In this document: piece by piece, positions 3,155 to 11,928 of the stretch
Layout of the letters: every line of letters starts with the position of its first letter
Numbering within the stretch: the stretch's first letter is position 1
Translations under genes and position numbers: made by a program
Assembly (NCBI GenBank): GCA_030696435.1
Contig: JAUYSF010000192.1
Coordinates: 1 to 11,928, forward strand
Direction of reading: 5' to 3'
Source of the DNA: Desulfoprunum sp.
Lineage (GTDB): Bacteria; Desulfobacterota; Desulfobulbia; Desulfobulbales; Desulfocapsaceae
Length of the DNA: 11,928 nt
Notes under the pieces: generated by a model
Seen by the model: only the letters and a program-made list of their open reading frames with translations
Databases searched by the model: none
What the model was told of the DNA's origin: nothing

Positions 3155-5173
3155 TTAGCTGCAGACCTCGTCAAGCACTTCGGCCAGATCCTTGACCTTC
3201 ATGCTGCCGCCACCATCACGGATGCCATCGCTGAACATGGTGACACAGAATGGACAAGCGGCGACAACGGTGTCGGCACCGGTGGCCATGGCCTCCAGGG
3301 CCCGCTCGTTGTTAATCCGGGTGCCGACTGTCTCTTCCATGAACATTCTTGCCCCTCCAGCGCCGCAACACATGGCGTTGTCATGATGTTTGCCGATTTC
3401 CAGTGGCGCCCCGTTCTGGTTGGCAAGGGCCAATAGCTGGCGAGGACTGTCGTACAAACCGTTCCAGCGGCCAAGATAGCAGGAGTCGTGGAAGGTGAGC
3501 TTGCCCAGATCGGCTGGATTCACCCGGAGTTTGCCGGCCTCTACCAATTCTTTCAAAAAATCGGTGTGGTGCACAACAGCGAAGGTGGCGCCGAACTGAG
3601 GGTATTCGTTCTTTAGGGTATTGAAGCAATGGGGGCAGCCGGTCAGGATGCGCTTGGGCTGGTACTGATTCAAGGTGGCGACGTTTGCCTGGATCATCAT
3701 CTGGGCCAGGTATTCGTTGCCGCATCGCCTGGCCAGATCACCATTGCAGCGCTCTTCCTCACCAAGGATTGCAAAGTTCACCCCGGCCTTGGTGAGCAAG
3801 CTGGCAATGGCCCGCGAGATCCTGATACCCGAATCCTCGTAAGAACCGGCGCAGCCGACGAACCAGAGAATGTCGGCATTCGGCGTATCCTTCATCAGCG
3901 GTACATCCAGATCCTTACACCAATGGGCGCGGTTTTCAACCGGGAACCCCCAGGGATTGGACTGGTTTTCGATACTGGCGAAGGTATCCTGCATTTCCGC
4001 CGGAAAGTCGGCCTGCATCAGCACCATATTCTTTCTGGCTTCCATAATGATATCGAGATGCTGAATATCCACCGGACAGATATTCTCGCAGCCACGGCAG
4101 GTGGTGCAGGCCCAGAGGGCATCCCTGGTCAACGCGCCACATTCATCATCAACTATGGCCGGCAGTGACGAAAAATCATCACCGTTGATGAGGGTATCGG
4201 CATTGGCCAGCAGGTTGACCTTGAGACTATGAATCATCTCTTTGGGCGAAAGCGGTTTGCCGGTGGCCGTGGCCGGGCAGCGTTCCTCGCAGCGGCCGCA
4301 TTCGGTGCAGGCGTAAAGATCGAGCACCTGTTTCCAATTCAGTTCATGCAGATGGGCAAGACCGAAGGTCTCGGCCTCCTCGTTTTCGATATCGGTGACG
4401 ATCATCGGCTTTTCGATATCAAGCGGTTTGTAAAAGACGTTCGGAATGCTGGCCAGCAGGTGCAGATGTTTTGATCCCGGGATATAAATCATGAAACCGA
4501 GAATAGTAAGGAGATGCAGCCAGTAAAAGACCTCCAGTCCGGTGTATTTACCGGCTTCGGATAAGTTGGCAAGGTTAAGCCCCTGGGAAAAAACGGCCGA
4601 TACGGTGAAATACTTGTTGTAATCGAAGCCGTGCGTCGGCAGAACCAGATGAAAGGCATTATAGATATGGAAGGTGATGATGATCACCGAGGTGAACATG
4701 ATGATCATCTTGGCATCCATGCCGTTGGTAAGGTATTGCGGTTTGAGGACGGTTCGCCGATAGAGTCCGTAACCAAGGCCGACCAGGACCAGGAAACCGA
4801 GTACATCGGCAATGCTCAGATAGAACCCGTAAAGGCCTGGGAAAAGATGGGCGACGCTGAACGGATGATAGATACCCTGAATCATCATTTCAAAGGAGTG
4901 GGGCTGCACCGCCAGAAATCCAAAGAAAATCATGGTGTGGGCAATACCCGGCCAGGGTTTGCGTCGGACATTTTTTTGCCCCAGGATATCGATCCACAGC
5001 ACTTTCAGACGCTCAGCGATCCGGTCGACGGCGAAGCTGCGTTTGCCCTGGACTGACAGCATCAATTTGATCAGATAGCTGACCCGGTAGAAGAAATAGC
5101 TGAAACCGGCGGATAGCAGAACGGCGACCACGATCGCCTTTGTGATGAAAAACTGACTCGAATGGTATTCCAT
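3155..5173 (-). CDS. Membrane-bound Fe-S oxidoreductase, EtfAB:menaquinone oxidoreductase (EMO) type
   Basis: A 672-residue protein with a membrane N-terminus and a cytoplasmic HdrD-like C-terminus. Hydrophobic helices lie near residues 8-38, 76-97, 108-137, 153-178 and 212-232, with histidines (His79, His92, His108, His169, His175, His220) that could bind b-type haem as in NarI-like domains. Two [4Fe-4S] ferredoxin motifs follow (Cys289/292/295/299 and Cys356/359/362/366). Then come two CCG-type domains: Cys441, Cys476 and Cys513/516, then Cys565, Cys602-603 and Cys640/643. In the first, the usual CC pair is reduced to Cys476-Asn477, with an additional Cys484. Proteins of this build next to etfBA pass electrons from reduced ETF to menaquinone, which matters in fatty-acid and aromatic-acid oxidation by anaerobes. 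The ATG at 5173 has CAGGA upstream. It follows etfA by 62 bases on the same strand and is the last gene before the terminator. A glycolate-oxidase-like or heterodisulfide-type partner is less likely given the ETF neighbours. Confidence 0.9.
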   Translation of the reverse strand: MEYHSSQFFITKAIVVAVLLSAGFSYFFYRVSYLIKLMLSVQGKRSFAVDRIAERLKVLWIDILGQKNVRRKPWPGIAHTMIFFGFLAVQPHSFEMMIQGIYHPFSVAHLFPGLYGFYLSIADVLGFLVLVGLGYGLYRRTVLKPQYLTNGMDAKMIIMFTSVIIITFHIYNAFHLVLPTHGFDYNKYFTVSAVFSQGLNLANLSEAGKYTGLEVFYWLHLLTILGFMIYIPGSKHLHLLASIPNVFYKPLDIEKPMIVTDIENEEAETFGLAHLHELNWKQVLDLYACTECGRCEERCPATATGKPLSPKEMIHSLKVNLLANADTLINGDDFSSLPAIVDDECGALTRDALWACTTCRGCENICPVDIQHLDIIMEARKNMVLMQADFPAEMQDTFASIENQSNPWGFPVENRAHWCKDLDVPLMKDTPNADILWFVGCAGSYEDSGIRISRAIASLLTKAGVNFAILGEEERCNGDLARRCGNEYLAQMMIQANVATLNQYQPKRILTGCPHCFNTLKNEYPQFGATFAVVHHTDFLKELVEAGKLRVNPADLGKLTFHDSCYLGRWNGLYDSPRQLLALANQNGAPLEIGKHHDNAMCCGAGGARMFMEETVGTRINNERALEAMATGADTVVAACPFCVTMFSDGIRDGGGSMKVKDLAEVLDEVCS

Positions 5174-5235
5174 AGGGATATCCTGAAAGACACTGATCCG
5201 TTGATGGGTTGAGCCGAGATTGCCGGTCAGGTTCC

Positions 5236-6186
5236 TTAGCGTTTGGCGAGGGCTTCCGTTAAGGCCGGTACGACTTCAAAGAGATCACCGATGATACCGT
5301 AATCGCATTTCTGGAAAATCGGCGCGTCCTTATCGTTATTGATGGCGACGATAACCTTGGCGGTTTTCATGCCGGCAAAATGCTGGACAGAACCGGACAG
5401 TCCGCAGGCGACATATAAGCGAGGGCTGACCGTCTTGCCGGTCTGGCCGACCTGCATCGAATGGGATGCATACCCCAGATCGACGGCCACTCGACTGGCA
5501 CCAACCGCACCGCCCAGGGTATCGGCGCATTTACCGAGGATTTGAAAATTGTCGGCTGAACCCAAGGGGCGGCCACCGGTAATAATGATGTTTGCTTCTG
5601 AGATATCTACCCGACCTGATGGGTTTTTCTTGACCTCTTTAATAACCAGGCGACCGTCATTCGACCGTGCTGAAGAAAAGACGGCGGCCCCGGCTGTGAC
5701 CGGCGCTTCTTTTTCCTCGATAGCGTTGGGGCGGATTGTGCACAGTACGAGGGAACCGTTCAACTGGAGAGTGGCCGTTGTCCTGCCTGAGAAAAAAGGT
5801 TTGACCACGGTACGCGCGGCAACGTCGACGGATAAACAGTCCTGGGCGAGGGGTGCGCCTGTTTGGGCTGCAACCCGCGCCATGATGTCCTTGCCCTTGC
5901 TGCTGCAAAGGCCAAAGAGAAAGTCAATGTGGTATTCCTTGACCGCGTCGATGATCAGGCCGGCCTGCAGATCCGGACTTTTGGCCAGGTTTTCGCCCTG
6001 GGAGCTCAGCTCAATCACCTGGGTTGCCCCGTAACGGCCGAGGATTTCTGTGCAGGCCGTCGCTGCTATCCCCATAACAAAGGCGATAATCTGGTGGCCC
6101 TCGCCCTGGGCGGCTGTCATCACTCCGTAATTGGCGATTTTTACGCCTGTGCTGTCTGTTTCAATGAGTACACCTATGTTGGCCAT
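5236..6186 (-). CDS. etfA: Electron transfer flavoprotein, alpha subunit
   Basis: A 316-residue ETF alpha subunit. The FAD-binding C-terminal domain is clear: GGRPLGSADNF (residues 204-214), GASRVAVDLGY, QVGQTGKTVSP (245-255), CGLSGSVQHFAGM (261-273), VAINNDKDAPIF and DYGIIGDLFEVVP. These match the family signature almost throughout; Pro207 replaces the common Gly after GGR. The N-terminal domain (1-190) is the usual less conserved ETF fold. With EtfB it forms a soluble heterodimer that accepts electrons from acyl-CoA or other dehydrogenases through FAD. The ATG at 6186 is preceded by AAGGGAG. It lies 58 bases after etfB and 62 before the membrane oxidoreductase, all on one strand, so the three are probably one transcript. 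Sequence alone does not show whether this ETF can bifurcate electrons. The non-bifurcating role is favoured because its partner is a quinone-linked Fe-S protein. Confidence 0.96.
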   Translation of the reverse strand: MANIGVLIETDSTGVKIANYGVMTAAQGEGHQIIAFVMGIAATACTEILGRYGATQVIELSSQGENLAKSPDLQAGLIIDAVKEYHIDFLFGLCSSKGKDIMARVAAQTGAPLAQDCLSVDVAARTVVKPFFSGRTTATLQLNGSLVLCTIRPNAIEEKEAPVTAGAAVFSSARSNDGRLVIKEVKKNPSGRVDISEANIIITGGRPLGSADNFQILGKCADTLGGAVGASRVAVDLGYASHSMQVGQTGKTVSPRLYVACGLSGSVQHFAGMKTAKVIVAINNDKDAPIFQKCDYGIIGDLFEVVPALTEALAKR

Positions 6187-6244
6187 GATAATTCTCCCTT
6201 ATGGTAGGATGGCAATTGCAATGTAGTTGTGATGAGAGTTGTCG

Positions 6245-7012
6245 TTAATCGAGGACTTTTTCTTCCTCGCGAAGAATGCGGACCAGCTCGCGGACCGCTT
6301 CCCCGGTGCTGCCACCGATGATCTTGGCTTTCGAGCGTTCCGATACCGAATCGAGGTGGATAACCTGGACCGAGTTGTCGAGTTGCAGATTAAGGCTTTT
6401 CAGATCGATTAGTTTGACATCCTTTTTCTTGGCCTTCATGACATCGGGAAGCTTCGGAAAGCGCGGTTCATTGAGCCCCTTGGTGGCTCCGATGACACAG
6501 GGAAAACTGATCTCGATGACCTCTTTTTCGCCGCCGCCGATCTCCCGCTCAACCATTGCCTTGCCCTCTGCCGGATCAAAACGCACGACGTCGGTGACCA
6601 CCGGCATATCGAGTGCCGCACCGAGTCGGTAACAGGTCTGCATGCCTTCCGTATCCATGGCCTGCTTGCCGGCAAAGATGATGTCGGCCGGGCCGTCATC
6701 GGCGATGACTTTGGCGAGAATCCGGGCGGTATCCTGGCTGTCGAGGAAGGTCTGGTCGATCCTGACCAGAATCGCTCGATGGGGGCCAAGGGCCAGGGCT
6801 GTACGAATGGTGGCCATGGCCGCCTCCTTTGCCAGGGTGACCAGCACGACTTCGCCACCTTTCTTTTCAACGAGGCGGACTGCTTCCTCAATCGCGTATT
6901 CGTCATGGGGGCTGATGATGTATTTGACCGTTTCATCAATCTGCTTGCCGCCGACTATCTTTATACTCGCTGCCGTATCAGGGACATGTTTCATGCATAC
7001 ATACGCTTTCAT
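6245..7012 (-). CDS. etfB: Electron transfer flavoprotein, beta subunit
   Basis: A 255-residue ETF beta subunit, normal for the family. The start MKAYVCMKHVPDTAASIKI is typical. The nucleotide (AMP)-binding loop is GKQAMDTEGMQT (residues 115-126), and the family signature VIGATKGLNEPRFPKL, followed by PDVMKAKKK, spans residues 173-197. It pairs with EtfA to carry electrons in the cytoplasm. The ATG at 7012 is preceded by AAGGAG at good spacing. It is the first gene of the etfB-etfA-oxidoreductase operon, with a recognisable promoter upstream. The identity of the donating dehydrogenase is unknown because no acyl-CoA dehydrogenase lies in the window. Confidence 0.96.
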   Translation of the reverse strand: MKAYVCMKHVPDTAASIKIVGGKQIDETVKYIISPHDEYAIEEAVRLVEKKGGEVVLVTLAKEAAMATIRTALALGPHRAILVRIDQTFLDSQDTARILAKVIADDGPADIIFAGKQAMDTEGMQTCYRLGAALDMPVVTDVVRFDPAEGKAMVEREIGGGEKEVIEISFPCVIGATKGLNEPRFPKLPDVMKAKKKDVKLIDLKSLNLQLDNSVQVIHLDSVSERSKAKIIGGSTGEAVRELVRILREEEKVLD

Positions 7013-7192: not shown

Positions 7193-8206
7193 TCATCCGT
7201 TCATTCCCGCCCGAACCTGGACCAGTTCGGCCATGATGCTGAGGGCTATCTCCTCCGGGGTATCCGCCCCGATGGCAAGGCCGATGGGACAATGCACCCG
7301 CGCCAGATCCACCTCGGTGAAGCCTGCACTGCGGAGCGAATCATAGACGGCCTCTCGTTTTTTCCGGCTGCCGATCATGCCGATATATCCGGAGCCGGTG
7401 CGCAGGGCCTGGGCCAGCACCTCCCGGTCATGGAGGTGGCCGCGGGTGACGATGATCACATAATCGTCTGGTCCAAGATCGTTCAGGCAAGCGGCGAAGG
7501 AGTCAAGAACCCGGACTTCCCGGGCCTCGGGATAGCGATCGGTGTTGGCAAACTCCTGCCGATCATCCATGACTACCACCTCAAACCCGACGAAGGCGGC
7601 GATCCTGGCCGTGGCCAGGGCCACGTGTCCGGCACCCGCCAGGTGGACCCGCCCCGGGTATACCAGCGGTTCGACGAACACCTCCCGGCCTTGATGCTCG
7701 ATTAGAAACGGCGCCCTTCGGCTCTTACGGAGGATCTCCGCCAGCAGCTCTGCGGGTACATCACCGTCTTCCTCGGAATCCAGGAAGAGCAACCGGGGCG
7801 GTACGCCATCTTGGGGTAATAGGGTCAGCAGCATTGGTCGTTTGCCCCGGATGAATTCTCTGCGCATCTGTTGAAACAGCTCAAGCATAACGGGTTCCAC
7901 GCGATGCAGCAGTACCGATACCGAACCGCCGCAGACCATGCCTTGCTCGGCGGCGGAGGTGGCATTCAGGGCAAAATTCAGCACGGCAAAGGAGGGTGGG
8001 CCTTGAAAAAGCTCCCTGGCCTTCACCTGGCAGTCCCCTTCCAGAGCGCCGCCGCCGACACTGCCGGCAATAGTACCGTCGGCCAGGACGAGCATCCGCG
8101 CGCCCGAGGTCCTGGGTGCCGAGCCGAGGTTGCGGACAATGGCACAGAGCACCACCGCTTGTCCCTGTTCCAGGGTATTGATAAGTTGATCAAGAATATG
8201 CTGCAT
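7193..8206 (-). CDS. xdhC: XdhC-family molybdenum hydroxylase maturation factor
   Basis: A 337-residue protein with both domains of the XdhC/CoxI family. The N-terminal part has NLGSAPRTSGARMLV (residues 26-40), the glycine-rich GTIAGSVGGGALEGDC (44-59) and MVCGGSVSVLL (90-100) with conserved Cys92. The C-terminal Rossmann domain has HLAGAGHVA (188-196), an acidic strand end VVMDDR (211-216), GYIGMIGSRKK (273-283) and HCPIGLAIGADTPEEIA (305-321). Family members bind the molybdenum cofactor and help insert its sulfurated form into xanthine dehydrogenase or aldehyde oxidoreductases. The start at 8206 is chosen because AAAGGAG precedes it; a longer in-frame start at 8275 would lie mostly inside the upstream gene. 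It overlaps that gene by 17 bases, so the two are probably coupled. No Mo-hydroxylase structural gene is in the window. No clear terminator was found after its stop codon. Confidence 0.9.
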   Translation of the reverse strand: MQHILDQLINTLEQGQAVVLCAIVRNLGSAPRTSGARMLVLADGTIAGSVGGGALEGDCQVKARELFQGPPSFAVLNFALNATSAAEQGMVCGGSVSVLLHRVEPVMLELFQQMRREFIRGKRPMLLTLLPQDGVPPRLLFLDSEEDGDVPAELLAEILRKSRRAPFLIEHQGREVFVEPLVYPGRVHLAGAGHVALATARIAAFVGFEVVVMDDRQEFANTDRYPEAREVRVLDSFAACLNDLGPDDYVIIVTRGHLHDREVLAQALRTGSGYIGMIGSRKKREAVYDSLRSAGFTEVDLARVHCPIGLAIGADTPEEIALSIMAELVQVRAGMNG

Positions 8207-10856
8207 ACACTTCTCCTTTATTGCGTTGATCAAGGATGGTTCGTTTGACCGTATGGGTGGCAGCAAAGCTCGCAACCCTACGAATCATCCCGATTAGTAT
8301 CTTGCCGCCGGCAAAACTCTCTCGAACGGCCGGAAGCTGTAAGAGCATCCGGCGGATTTCCTCTTCGATGGGACTTTTTCCCGGAACAGCCACAAAATCC
8401 ACCTGCAGCCGGTCCATACCGTCTTGCGCCATGGTCACGCGGTAATCAAGCAGACCGGGGATCCGGAACAGCAGGTCGTCCAGATCCTGGCTGTACAGGA
8501 GACCGCCGCCCGGCAGCAGGCAGCCGGCTAGACGGCCACGGATAGTAGTTAGTCGGGCGGTCACCCCGCCGCAAGGGCAGGGAGAGCGGTCGAGAGTGGC
8601 CATATCTCCGGTCCGGTAGCGGATGAGCGGCATGGCCTTACGGCCAAGCGTTGTCAGAACCACCTCACCGGCCTCACCCTCAGAAAGGATATTGCCGGTG
8701 CATGGATCCACAATCTCCACTAACAGTTCCGATTCGCGGATATGGCAGCCTTTATGGGCCGAGCATTCCACCGCGCCGCCGAGGCCGGATTCCGTCGCCC
8801 CGTAATGAAGAAAGGTCTCGCAGCCGCAGGCCGCCTCGATACGGCTACGCAAGGCCGGTGCGGCATAATCGGAACAGAGGAGCATTGATTTCAGCAGACC
8901 CGGTCCGATTTCCTCGGCCAGGGCCAGCAGATGCTGGGGCAGGCCGACCACACAGGTCAGCCGCTGCTGGCGAATGATCCCGGCTATATCCGTTGCCGAC
9001 TCCGGCGGCCACATGCCGCGGGCCTCTATCCCTCCACCCTGCAGAGCCCGGATAAGCAGGTCGCCGACACTGTCCGGCTGGGCAAAAGGGAGCAGCACCA
9101 GCAGCCGGTCATCGTTGCCAACGAGGCTGTGCATGCCGTGGAGAAAGAACTCCGAGGTGGCGGCCAGATCGGCTGCCGTGAACGACAAACGTTTGGGAAC
9201 TCCGGTGCTGCCCGAGGTCTGCAAGGTAATGACCCGGTGCACCAGACTTTGGGAGACCGAGAGCAGACGATGGCCCTGACTGGCAATATCGCTGCCGGTG
9301 AGCAGCGGCAGCCGGGCCAGGTCGGCAAGGGTCAGCAGGGAGTTCGGCTCCAGTCCGGCGAGGCGCTCCCGGTACAACGGACTGTTTGCTCTGGCATGAC
9401 GGATTGTCCGTCGCAGCGCCTCCAGCTGAGAGCGTTCCAGCTCATCCCGGCAGAGCGGCGTACCGATGCCGAGCCGTGCTGCCACCAGGCCATCGACCGG
9501 GGTTCGCTTTATTGCCGTTGCTTGCGGGCGACGGGAACGGTTCAGGCTCCGGCCGTCTCGGGCGGTCAGGTTGAAGCTGCAGAAGGGGATGAGGCGGCCA
9601 TCGGGTTGGGCGACATGGATGCAGCAGCCCTTAAGCCGCTCAAGATTCAGACTCCAAGCGTCCTGAAAGGCCATGGCCGAGATGGAAAAGGTATGGCTGC
9701 GGGCCCGGCGCAGGAAATGGTCGAGATCATTGTCCGGTTCGGAACCGGCTGTATCGCTGCTCTCCTGTGCCCTCCCCCATTGCCGGGCGGTGATGGCGAT
9801 GGAAGTCAGCGCCCCTTCCTCGGCAGGCTTTGGCGTGCAGTCACAGCTGGTGCTGCCGAGCCGCTGCAGCCGACCGTCCTCTTGCACCAGGTATTTGGCC
9901 GAAAACGAACAGAGGGCATGCTCGCAGCCCGGCGGCCGAAAATCGTCCAGGTTGAGGAGCCCCTGGCTCTGGTTGCAAAGGCCGCTCATAATTTCGGGAA
10001 GGGTCACATGGTCGGGGCGAAAAGTTGCCGGAAATCGACCCAAATAGCTCATCGGCTGAAAATGGACACCGCGCACATGGGGTTGTCGGTCGAGGCCGAA
10101 GCGCACCACCTCCCAGAGCTGATCGGTATTGACGCCACGCGCCACCGTCGGTACCAGGACAATGCCCAGTCCGGCCGCAGCCAGATTGTCGATGGCCCGC
10201 CGTTTTTCGGCAAGCAACTTGCGACCGCGCAGGGTGGCAAAGACCTCGTCGCGCACCCCGTCAAACTGGAGAAAGACCGAGGAGAGCCCCTCGTCGCGCA
10301 GTCTTACGGCAAGTTCCGGGTCGCTCGCAAAGGCGAGCCCGTTACTGTTCAGTTGAATGAAGGTGAAACCGGCCTTTCTGGCCGATCCGACGATTTGGGG
10401 GAGATCGGGACGAATGGTCGGCTCGCCGCCGGAGAGCTGCAGGTTGCAGCCGCCGGTCTGGGTTATGATGCGGGCAAACATCAGGTCCAATGTTGCCGGA
10501 TCGGGATCTGCCATGGAGCCGCCGCTGTCGGCAAAACAGACGGGGCAGCCCAGATTGCACCGGGAAGTGATCTCAACAAGGGCGGTGCAGGTCCGCTGGC
10601 CATGGTCCTCGCACAGGCCGCAGTCGAGCGGACAGCCCCGGCCTGTCGGCCTGCGGCTGCCGCCGGAGAAGGGCAGTTTGGGACGGAACCAGGAAAGAAA
10701 GGGCGGTTCACCCCGCCACACCGTGGCCGAAAACGAGCCGTGTTCCGGACACGTCTTCTCCAGCCGGACGACGTCCCCATCGCCGACCAGTCGTCCGGTC
10801 AGGCGCTTAAGACATTCCGGACAGACGCTTTCTACCTGACCAAGGAATTTAATCAT
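8190..10856 (-). CDS. Fusion of a radical SAM protein (TrsS-like/MJ0619-like) with an AMP-dependent CoA ligase (DVU_1553-like)
   Basis: An 888-residue protein with two enzymes in one chain. The N-terminus has a zinc-ribbon-like start (Cys12/Cys15, Cys36/His39) and then GCPLDCGLCEDHGQRTC (residues 74-90). The radical SAM motif CNLGCPVC follows (Cys100, Cys104, Cys107), with SGGEP at 142-146. This pattern is typical of the group containing the MJ0619-type pterin methylase. More cysteines follow at 311, 316, 338, 340, 411, 412 and 426. After a short Arg/Lys-rich linker (about 440-452) comes a phenylacetate-CoA-ligase-like domain: ATP loop TSGSTGVPKR (547-556), YGATESG (685-691), YRTGD (747-751), CPCGG (760-764) and a C-terminal catalytic Lys candidate in TVKRT (Lys871). 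I recall close homologues as two separate genes near XdhC, named TrsS and DVU_1553 family; some TrsS members are called selenoproteins, but no UGA interrupts this frame. The ATG at 10856 overlaps the upstream stop by 8 bases. Substrates are unknown. Confidence 0.88.
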   Translation of the reverse strand: MIKFLGQVESVCPECLKRLTGRLVGDGDVVRLEKTCPEHGSFSATVWRGEPPFLSWFRPKLPFSGGSRRPTGRGCPLDCGLCEDHGQRTCTALVEITSRCNLGCPVCFADSGGSMADPDPATLDLMFARIITQTGGCNLQLSGGEPTIRPDLPQIVGSARKAGFTFIQLNSNGLAFASDPELAVRLRDEGLSSVFLQFDGVRDEVFATLRGRKLLAEKRRAIDNLAAAGLGIVLVPTVARGVNTDQLWEVVRFGLDRQPHVRGVHFQPMSYLGRFPATFRPDHVTLPEIMSGLCNQSQGLLNLDDFRPPGCEHALCSFSAKYLVQEDGRLQRLGSTSCDCTPKPAEEGALTSIAITARQWGRAQESSDTAGSEPDNDLDHFLRRARSHTFSISAMAFQDAWSLNLERLKGCCIHVAQPDGRLIPFCSFNLTARDGRSLNRSRRPQATAIKRTPVDGLVAARLGIGTPLCRDELERSQLEALRRTIRHARANSPLYRERLAGLEPNSLLTLADLARLPLLTGSDIASQGHRLLSVSQSLVHRVITLQTSGSTGVPKRLSFTAADLAATSEFFLHGMHSLVGNDDRLLVLLPFAQPDSVGDLLIRALQGGGIEARGMWPPESATDIAGIIRQQRLTCVVGLPQHLLALAEEIGPGLLKSMLLCSDYAAPALRSRIEAACGCETFLHYGATESGLGGAVECSAHKGCHIRESELLVEIVDPCTGNILSEGEAGEVVLTTLGRKAMPLIRYRTGDMATLDRSPCPCGGVTARLTTIRGRLAGCLLPGGGLLYSQDLDDLLFRIPGLLDYRVTMAQDGMDRLQVDFVAVPGKSPIEEEIRRMLLQLPAVRESFAGGKILIGMIRRVASFAATHTVKRTILDQRNKGEVYAAYS

Positions 10857-11301
10857 TGCAGGCACTCGCAGGATCGAAGCCATTTTCCATGAGGATGGCC
10901 ATGGCCCGGCCAAAGCACTCGGAGACCAGACCGCCGCAGATGGCGGTGTCCGGTTGGTTGTCCTTGACGATATCGGCGCAGTTGATGCCGCCAAACCGGG
11001 ACGTGCCGTATTCTTCGAACCAGACTGCCAGTTCGGAGAGCATCAGCGGCAAGTGGTTATCGGCCTCATCATCCGCTTTTCCCTTGCCCGCATAGTAGGC
11101 GATAAGACAGGCCGCCCCGGTCAGGGCGCCGCAGGTCCCGCGGGTATCGTAAATGCCATGGCACAGCCCCGACATGGCCCGAATCAGGCCGGGGTTGCTT
11201 TGCCCCTGCAGGTCGAGAGCCAGCTGCATGACGATCTGGCTGCAGCAGAAGCCATGGTGCGCCAGTTTCAAGATATCCAGAGCAAAATCGTTCGTGTTCA
11301 T
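10849..11301 (-). CDS. C-GCAxxG-C-C family protein (DVU_1555-like)
   Basis: A 150-residue soluble, cysteine-rich protein. The motif GTCGALTGA (residues 55-63, Cys57) with flanking Cys19-Cys20, Cys47, Cys65, Cys108, Cys122 and Cys129 matches the C_GCAxxG_C_C family, often annotated as putative redox-active or metal-binding proteins of unknown function. The FCCSQIV start (residues 18-24) and the INCADIV and ICGGLV segments near the C-terminus are also typical. The ATG at 11301 is preceded by GAGG; a TTG six codons earlier lacks this. Its last codons overlap the start of the radical SAM fusion gene by 8 bases, so translation is probably coupled. It would act in the cytoplasm, perhaps as an electron or sulfur carrier for its neighbours, but this is inference from context. 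Confidence 0.85.
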   Translation of the reverse strand: MNTNDFALDILKLAHHGFCCSQIVMQLALDLQGQSNPGLIRAMSGLCHGIYDTRGTCGALTGAACLIAYYAGKGKADDEADNHLPLMLSELAVWFEEYGTSRFGGINCADIVKDNQPDTAICGGLVSECFGRAMAILMENGFDPASACND

Positions 11302-11928
11302 ACGTGGATTTCCTCGCAATAAGCAAAAAAAGACCGGGCCGGATGGCGGCAGTGGCGGTACAGGCGGCGGTCGCCTGGTTCGGATCTCCGGTTACGGCCT
11401 GCCAGAATGCCTGCAGGGAGCCATGGGCAAAGACAAACTCGGCGGCGGTCTGGTTGAGCAGCCGGGTATGATCTTCCAGCACTTCGATACTAAATCCCGC
11501 CTCAAGGAAGAGCTCCTGCACCTCGTCCAGATCCGTAGCCTGGGAAAAACAGCACTGCACCGGCCATTTTCCGGTCCAGTCCGCTGCGTTGCCGGTTCGG
11601 GCATAGATGTCGGTCAGTGAGACGTGGGAACCGGGTCTCAGCACCCGGGCAAACTCGGCAAGTACCCCCTTCCGGTCGGTTAGATTCCAGACACATTCGC
11701 AGAGCACCATATCAAGACATGCATCCGGCAAAGGCAAATGGGCCAGATCGGCTTGGGCCACGGTCCGACTTCCCTGCCCGGCTTCCTGCAAGAGTCCCGG
11801 GTCCAGATCAAGCCCCAGTACGGTTTTAACGCCATATTCCCGCAGAATGGTCATGCTCGCGCCGGTTCCACAGCCCGCATCGAGAATGAGAGCATCCGGG
11901 GTGGGCTCAAGCAGATCGAGAATGCGTC
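11069..11928 (-). CDS. SAM-dependent class I methyltransferase (DVU_1556-like), 5' truncated by window edge
   Basis: The open frame enters from the right edge with RILDLLEPTPDALILDAGCG, continuing TGASM. DAGCGTG is motif I of Rossmann-fold methyltransferases and binds S-adenosylmethionine. GLDLDP follows with the acidic residue for the ribose. ADLAHLPLPD, then DMVLCECVWNLTDR, and FARVLRPGSHVSLTDIYAR are the later motifs of the UbiE/MenG-like subgroup. The core ends at about LFLLIARK (near 11330). Only about 35-45 N-terminal residues seem to be missing. The frame then continues without a stop for about 80 codons, running out of phase through 233 bases of the next gene to a stop at 11069. Either the C-terminus truly overlaps or a frameshift lies near the seven-base homopolymer at 11325-11331. 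It is the first visible gene of this operon. The methyl acceptor is unknown; a small molecule is likelier than protein or nucleic acid. Confidence 0.8.
   Translation of the reverse strand, partial: RILDLLEPTPDALILDAGCGTGASMTILREYGVKTVLGLDLDPGLLQEAGQGSRTVAQADLAHLPLPDACLDMVLCECVWNLTDRKGVLAEFARVLRPGSHVSLTDIYARTGNAADWTGKWPVQCCFSQATDLDEVQELFLEAGFSIEVLEDHTRLLNQTAAEFVFAHGSLQAFWQAVTGDPNQATAACTATAAIRPGLFLLIARKSTYEHERFCSGYLETGAPWLLLQPDRHAAGSRPAGAKQPRPDSGHVGAVPWHLRYPRDLRRPDRGGLSYRLLCGQGKSG

Follow-up and report, generated by a model that had tools for sequence, protein, structure and literature searches.

The question raised by this locus is what a methyltransferase, a small cysteine-rich protein, a radical SAM enzyme fused to a ligase, and an XdhC-family maturation factor, encoded side by side on the minus strand, do together and on behalf of which enzyme. 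The window, by which we mean the whole stretch of 11,928 bases that was analyzed, is a complete contig (C470) of a genome assembled into 494 contigs (3.82 Mb). The four minus-strand genes that the earlier note had recognized stand as described there, each of them scoring above a curated NCBIfam cut-off (table 1), with their starts, overlaps, and 5' truncation corrected here; as the whole-protein E-values against these models range from 1.5e-51 to 9e-186, chance is ruled out as a source of the family matches.

Table 1. Features of the minus-strand gene set in the window, with the evidence for each assignment
Feature	Coordinates	Strand	Evidence
DVU_1556-family SAM-dependent methyltransferase (MT), 5' end lost at the contig end	11306..11926	-	NF045667, 192.5 bits, above the cut-off of 155 despite the 5' truncation; residues 1-205
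Run-on of the methyltransferase frame into the next gene, absent in relatives	11069..11305	-	75 residues beyond the aligned end
DVU_1555-family C-GCAxxG-C-C protein (CGA), 150 aa	10849..11301	-	NF045669, 173.8 bits (cut-off 103); PF09719
TrsS part of the fusion gene (gene 8190-10856)	9537..10856	-	NF045646, 617.7 bits (cut-off 490); ligand conservation; Tes fold
TrsS sites: rubredoxin-type site, N-terminal cluster motif CPLDCGLC, radical SAM CX3CX2C, C-terminal cluster	within 9537..10856	-	sequence
DVU_1553-family AMP ligase part of the fusion gene, in one frame with TrsS	8190..9503	-	NF045666, 398.8 bits (cut-off 300); TSGSTG, YGATE, YRTGD; Lys870
XdhC-family aldehyde oxidoreductase maturation factor, 337 aa	7193..8206	-	NF045664, 399.8 bits (cut-off 350)

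In the fusion protein, which ends at residue 887, TrsS occupies residues 6-439 and the match to the DVU_1553 ligase residues 451-775. Its gene, which begins with an ATG at 10856, shares 8 bases with the gene before it, and the XdhC gene, starting at 8206, overlaps the fusion gene by 17 bases. The overlap between the methyltransferase and CGA genes is far longer (233 bases) and is a peculiarity of the window sequence, because the frames of relatives end far sooner: the run-on of 75 residues compares with at most 43 in 84 of 86 rows (median 4), and only one row besides the window exceeds 40 residues (43, in L114). A stop present in the methyltransferase frame of relatives is missing from the window at 11069-11305.

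By gene order, these genes form the downstream half of an operon that belongs to an aldehyde oxidoreductase (AOR) of the D. gigas MOP type. In relatives, the usual order is AOR, PNDR/dicluster protein, DVU_1557 small protein, MT, CGA, TrsS, ligase, XdhC, MocA-like NTP transferase, and His-phosphatase. Within the class, 34 TrsS matches exceed the cut-off in 33 of 192 genomes, one of the 34 being the window itself, and gene maps were drawn by ORF clustering over up to 20 kb around the 33 others, around three weaker matches, and on three contigs of the window's genome. Among the 40 loci clustered, AOR was found in 31, PNDR in 29, the transferase and XdhC in 27 each, and MT in 26, the counts for CGA (19), phosphatase (15), and small protein (14) coming from a simple ORF caller that overlooks some small genes. 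Representatives were assigned by NCBIfam to NF045668 (AOR), NF045663 (PNDR, which has a GltD-like start followed by dicluster and CCG domains), NF045645 (small protein), and NF045665 (a MocA-like transferase with an HD domain), and the phosphatase exceeded the TIGR03162 cut-off in one of two representatives. A second set of loci was obtained by searching with the D. gigas AOR and keeping the best 80 of 281 named loci; the block recurs there in sulfate-reducing Desulfobacterota and also in loci labeled Bacillota, Desulfosporosinus, Desulfotomaculum, Chloroflexi, Anaerolineae, and Actinomycetota. TrsS is present in 50 of these best 80, many of the other 30 ending at a contig edge, and the 50 loci carry AOR and PNDR without exception, together with MT (49), ligase (49), CGA (48), the small protein (47), XdhC (40), the transferase (33), a MoeA-like gene (31), and the phosphatase (29).

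The operon thus consists of three blocks: one with the AOR, the PNDR/dicluster/CCG oxidoreductase, and a small protein with two CxxC motifs; a molybdenum-cofactor block with XdhC, the MocA-like transferase with its HD domain, a MoeA-like protein, and the His-phosphatase; and a Trs block with the methyltransferase, the C-GCAxxG-C-C protein, TrsS, and the acyl-adenylating ligase. The last two are separable, because XdhC was not detected downstream in the TrsS-bearing loci of Chloroflexi, Anaerolineae, and Actinomycetota among the best 80 of 281. In Desulforhabdus the blocks lie apart, one locus (L093) holding AOR, PNDR, small protein, XdhC, transferase, and phosphatase, and another (L173) small protein, MT, CGA, TrsS, and ligase. 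All of this corresponds to the DVU_1551-DVU_1557/TrsS/AOR neighborhood of NCBIfam (NF045645, NF045646, and NF045663-NF045669), for which each of the four genes is over a cut-off and whose set and order recur around the AOR in relatives. The families matched by the four genes take their names from a single Desulfovibrio vulgaris neighborhood (DVU_1553, 1555, 1556) or from the AOR. Unlike that neighborhood, the window has TrsS and ligase fused in one protein and has no NTP transferase after XdhC but an ETF-like gene instead: ETF-beta-like, ETF-alpha-like, and membrane CCG/4Fe-4S genes lie directly downstream of XdhC at 3155-7012, where the NTP transferase is usual.

The earlier note had suggested looking for a Mo-hydroxylase gene beyond position 11,928, and the same genome provides one: the first gene of contig C20 is a truncated PNDR/dicluster gene, which an AOR gene adjoins, both on the minus strand and oriented as expected past the right end of the window. 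The join between C20 and the window is deduced from gene order, being absent from the assembly, and the AOR is adjacent in relatives. The C20 AOR aligns over its full length with D. gigas MOP (1522 bits). As for the MocA-like transferase and the small redox protein hoped for in the same direction, both occur in this operon in relatives. Elsewhere in the genome, positions 81-5760 of contig C210 (L073) hold a second cassette with CGA, XdhC, and NTP transferase and, by sight, a shortened PNDR-like gene, the small protein, and a methyltransferase, its TrsS-ligase gene being reduced to a 263-aa remnant with large internal deletions (decay or misassembly). A second AOR-like gene, which scores 759 bits and thus stays under the cut-off of 1100, lies on contig C450 (L072), together with a CobC-like phosphatase and what by sight looks like an aminotransferase/desulfurase; in a genome of the same genus (G186), an L072-type gene set adjoins the Trs operon.

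The co-occurrence check that the earlier note had proposed as a test of the link to molybdenum hydroxylases came out in its favor, TrsS going almost always with AOR across the 484 genomes searched. In the class (n = 192), TrsS exceeds its cut-off in 33 genomes, AOR in 34, and both in 33 (at E<=0.001 the TrsS model matches 192/192 genomes through other radical SAM proteins, and 14/14 control genomes also match below the cut-off). Eight genera of the class mix genomes with and without TrsS, a better control for relatedness than pooled counts, and the AOR status agrees in every genome but one (G120). There, at locus L181, the AOR frame is broken by stops and the cassette is nearly all gone, with only the MoeA-like gene and the His-phosphatase left of it within 18 kb, which is a case of natural decay of AOR and cassette. 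In the family of Solidesulfovibrio alcoholivorans (G199, L151; n = 247), where AOR was scored from hits of the D. gigas piece at E<=1e-100 and TrsS from TrsS hits at E<=1e-50, AOR occurs in 170 genomes, TrsS in 169 (166 over the cut-off), both in 164, and neither in 72; the 11 discordant genomes (AOR only in 6, TrsS only in 5) are draft genomes. In the family of Desulfosporosinus (G447; n = 45), TrsS is over its cut-off in 21 genomes, AOR in 20, and neither in 24, and with the AOR of G474, which is split in two pieces on two contigs, 21/21 TrsS genomes have an AOR.

Among 11 genomes without TrsS at the AOR locus, 10 carry it elsewhere, the exception being a Spirochaetia MAG, and TrsS was found in four of five further genomes (three of them already known to have it), the fifth being G338, one of the six AOR-only genomes. 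These exceptions and the discordant genomes count against the reading favored below, as do second AOR copies without the module nearby, seen at L108, L152, and L183. The AOR model matches 89 of the 192 class genomes at E<=0.001, 34 of them over the cut-off, and TrsS over the cut-off was found in 0 of the other 55. In one genome of the same genus as the window (G106), an AOR paralogue of 775.5 bits (cut-off 1100) occurs with no TrsS. A role in the maturation of molybdenum hydroxylases in general was thus rejected, as none of the 55 genomes with more distant Mo hydroxylases has TrsS over the cut-off. Of the link to a Mo hydroxylase drawn in the earlier note, the part that stands is that a small-molecule or maturation module accompanies an aldehyde oxidoreductase; its breadth was excessive, since the link concerns the D. 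gigas MOP type only. Overall, TrsS is retained and lost with the MOP-type AOR and not with more distant Mo hydroxylases. Such co-retention speaks for dependence without fixing its direction, and the AOR could act on the product of the module.

As to the chemistry, the closest solved relative of TrsS is the tetraether lipid synthase Tes (GDGT-MAS; PDB 7tol, 7tom), matched by 7tol at E 2e-72 and, with an 18-sequence profile, at 4.4e-121. An AlphaFold2 model of TrsS (pLDDT 84.6, pTM 0.90) superposes on 7tom/7tol in Foldseek over 479-486 columns at TMq 0.80-0.81, with an rmsd of 6.1-6.7 A; MoaA comes next at TMq 0.42. Tes has been described as holding a rubredoxin iron and three [4Fe-4S] clusters, and the residues expected at these places recur in TrsS: the rubredoxin ligands C11, C14, C35, and H38 in 82/82 relatives (H38 in 81/82), the N-cluster residues C74, C78, C81, and H84 and the radical SAM cysteines C99, C103, and C106 in 82/82, and the C-terminal cluster residues M394, C410, C411, and C425, assigned by sequence alignment, in 76-77 of 82. 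Judging from the model and from conserved residues, TrsS thus has the fold and the predicted metal ligands of Tes, sharing with it the rubredoxin site, the N-terminal cluster, the radical SAM site, and the C-terminal cluster residues. By analogy, TrsS is expected to work like Tes, which joins carbon to carbon by way of a substrate carbon bonded to the sulfur of a cluster and, when SAM is limiting, accumulates a thiolated lipid.

Unlike Tes, TrsS is tied to an AOR and a ligase, and it is not filed as Tes because it reaches 299.7 bits against the cut-off of 450 of the Tes model (NF045702). It also has an additional cysteine, Cys89, in 82/82 relatives, and where archaeal Tes conserves Tyr459 the window sequence has Val, according to an alignment whose 20-residue offset was deduced from C9. 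Further cysteines are Cys310 (70/82), Cys315 (78/82), and Cys337 (77/82), the Tes stretch opposite Cys315 and Cys337 lying outside the alignment. For the radical SAM half, the earlier note had invoked enzymes that methylate a pterin in methanopterin synthesis, a precedent that has fallen away: the pterin methylase proposed, MJ0619, has in the sources available not been corroborated as such and is now regarded as a tetraether lipid synthase.

The ligase half shares its adenylation motifs and C-terminal lysine with phenylacetate-CoA ligase (PaaK) and coenzyme F390 synthetase, and its best match to a solved PaaK has E 3e-33. It differs from both in scoring far below their cut-offs (118.6 of 646.3 for PaaK, 65.2 of 458.7 for F390). 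TSGSTG, YGATE, and YRTGD, all present in the window, are recovered by pattern in 74, 53, and 85 of 89 rows of relatives, and Lys870 is kept in 79 of 82 ungapped rows. The fusion of TrsS with the ligase supports successive steps on one molecule; it occurs in 5 of 87 rows with both genes, that is, at four distinct loci (L060 and L088 being one contig), some other rows being repeats too, with 83 distinct TrsS sequences in all.

What the Trs block makes can be proposed tentatively. We infer, with a confidence a little short of even, that it builds a small organic factor that serves AOR activation or electron transfer from AOR to PNDR and that does not lastingly change the pterin. In such a scheme, the ligase would adenylate a carboxylate, with CoA as only a putative acceptor; TrsS would functionalize an unactivated C-H of the same molecule, forming a C-S or a C-C bond (both seen with Tes); the methyltransferase would cap the product; the C-GCAxxG-C-C protein might lend redox or sulfur support; and the product would serve AOR activation or the flow of electrons to PNDR, the candidate electron partner that the operon offers. 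The TrsS-ligase fusion would then keep two successive steps together. A more precise version, which we regard as speculative and on the whole unlikely, is that the product would be a new low-molecular-weight factor, at its boldest an alkyl thiol made by Tes-type insertion of sulfur into an unactivated C-H, that would activate the Mo-dithiolene site of MOP-type AORs or carry electrons to the PNDR/CCG protein. Were it true, it would account for an AOR type that functions with no sulfido ligand and rarely persists where TrsS is absent, and it would mean that many of the bacterial "Tes homologues" serving as lipid-biomarker genes have been misinterpreted.

The reading of the earlier note, according to which the cluster modifies the molybdenum cofactor at its pterin or at a ligand, has in its favor that XdhC and the MocA-like transferase belong to the operon, and its testing ground is D. 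gigas, whose MOP (PDB 1sij, 1vlb) has a history of almost 40 years and was the first member of the xanthine oxidase family with a crystal structure. A protein of genome G217 matches the D. gigas MOP piece of 618 residues with 100% identity, and a MoeA-like gene precedes mop there, with a nitroreductase/BluB-like gene (L172, 9918-10571), PNDR, small protein, MT, CGA, TrsS, ligase, XdhC (338.9 bits of 350), and phosphatase after it. This operon has the window's gene set around an AOR that the one in the window's genome matches at full length, and unlike the window it has TrsS and ligase as separate genes and the nitroreductase/BluB-like gene between mop and PNDR; an NTP transferase was not detected at the D. 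gigas mop operon. D. gigas thus has the module just downstream of mop, and yet its MOP is described with the ordinary cytosine-dinucleotide cofactor (MCD), the pterin rings being very well defined at 1.28 A (2023 review), and the available part of that review mentions neither an extra group on the MOP cofactor nor a protein modification of the AOR. A lasting pterin change is therefore unlikely, unless the module was silent in the cells used for purification, which came in large masses (2023 review), and alteration of the pterin, as first proposed, is probably wrong. The same review reports that D. gigas MOP shows activity even in the absence of the usual sulfido ligand and that, unlike xanthine oxidase, it is activated in a dithiolene-based manner, so that a role at the Mo ligand, the dithiolene, or activation is possible; this exceptional activation counts for the pterin or ligand reading as well, which with the loss of its MJ0619 precedent we nonetheless hold to be quite improbable as a whole. 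Since purified D. gigas MOP is active in vitro, the factor that we favor is not needed as a permanent part of the AOR, and the putative electron partner named for MOP from in vitro work is flavodoxin (2023 review).

Protein modification is frequent among radical SAM enzymes, and the Trs block might thus post-translationally modify a protein of the AOR chain, whether PNDR, the DVU_1557 protein, or the AOR itself. The near-constant company of PNDR (50/50) and the small protein (47/50) at the TrsS-bearing loci among the best 80 of 281 agrees with this, but TrsS has the fold of Tes, whose known substrate is a lipid, an acyl-adenylating ligase fits a small molecule better, and the silence of the available review text on any modification of D. 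gigas AOR counts against it too, so that we deem it unlikely, if worth keeping in view. Alternatively, the module could be catabolic, the AOR yielding an acid that the ligase activates and whose product TrsS and the methyltransferase process: iron alcohol dehydrogenases neighbor 13 of the class loci, and the source available places D. vulgaris DVU_1559, named Aor there, in ethanol metabolism. However, the conserved block includes no gene of beta-oxidation or other degradation, and a methyltransferase and a Tes-type enzyme would be odd in aldehyde breakdown, which makes this reading rather improbable. Finally, bacterial Tes homologues have been proposed to make membrane-spanning lipids, and as Tes is the nearest solved relative of TrsS, the latter might be such a synthase lying beside the AOR by chance; set against the near-perfect tie to one aldehyde oxidoreductase across the 484 genomes searched, the score below the Tes cut-off, and the Val in place of Tyr459, this is very improbable.

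The gene families of the operon are already catalogued in NCBIfam, a 2026 review that refers to Haft and Tolstoy 2025 places TrsS with the selenoprotein families, and the 2025 paper may already describe the neighborhood, so we do not claim the co-occurrence of TrsS and AOR as unpublished. Within the open-licence PMC literature, we found no functional study of the TrsS/AOR-operon module, no mention of the locus tags DVU1551 and DVU1553-1557, and nothing evidently related to a radical SAM enzyme linked to an AOR. D. gigas MOP has long been studied, yet its operon encodes an undescribed set of radical SAM enzyme, ligase, and methyltransferase that is retained and lost with it, and the product of this module would show how MOP is activated or where its electrons go. 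Knowing the product would, moreover, caution that the counts of Tes homologues in Desulfobacterota, Chloroflexota, and Actinomycetota may partly reflect aldehyde metabolism and not membrane-spanning lipids: bacterial homologues were, in the source available, collected by BLASTP at E<1e-50 and identity >20%, and TrsS matches Tes at E 2e-72.

Other TrsS-like genes were encountered as well. Tandem copies at L075 and L076 (G071, G107), of about 200-240 bits and thus below the cut-off, had no AOR detected nearby and represent another Tes-like group. In the Desulfosporosinus family, partial-length TrsS matches of ~340 bits occur in G452, G456, G459, and G467, and G459 also has a second TrsS copy over the cut-off.
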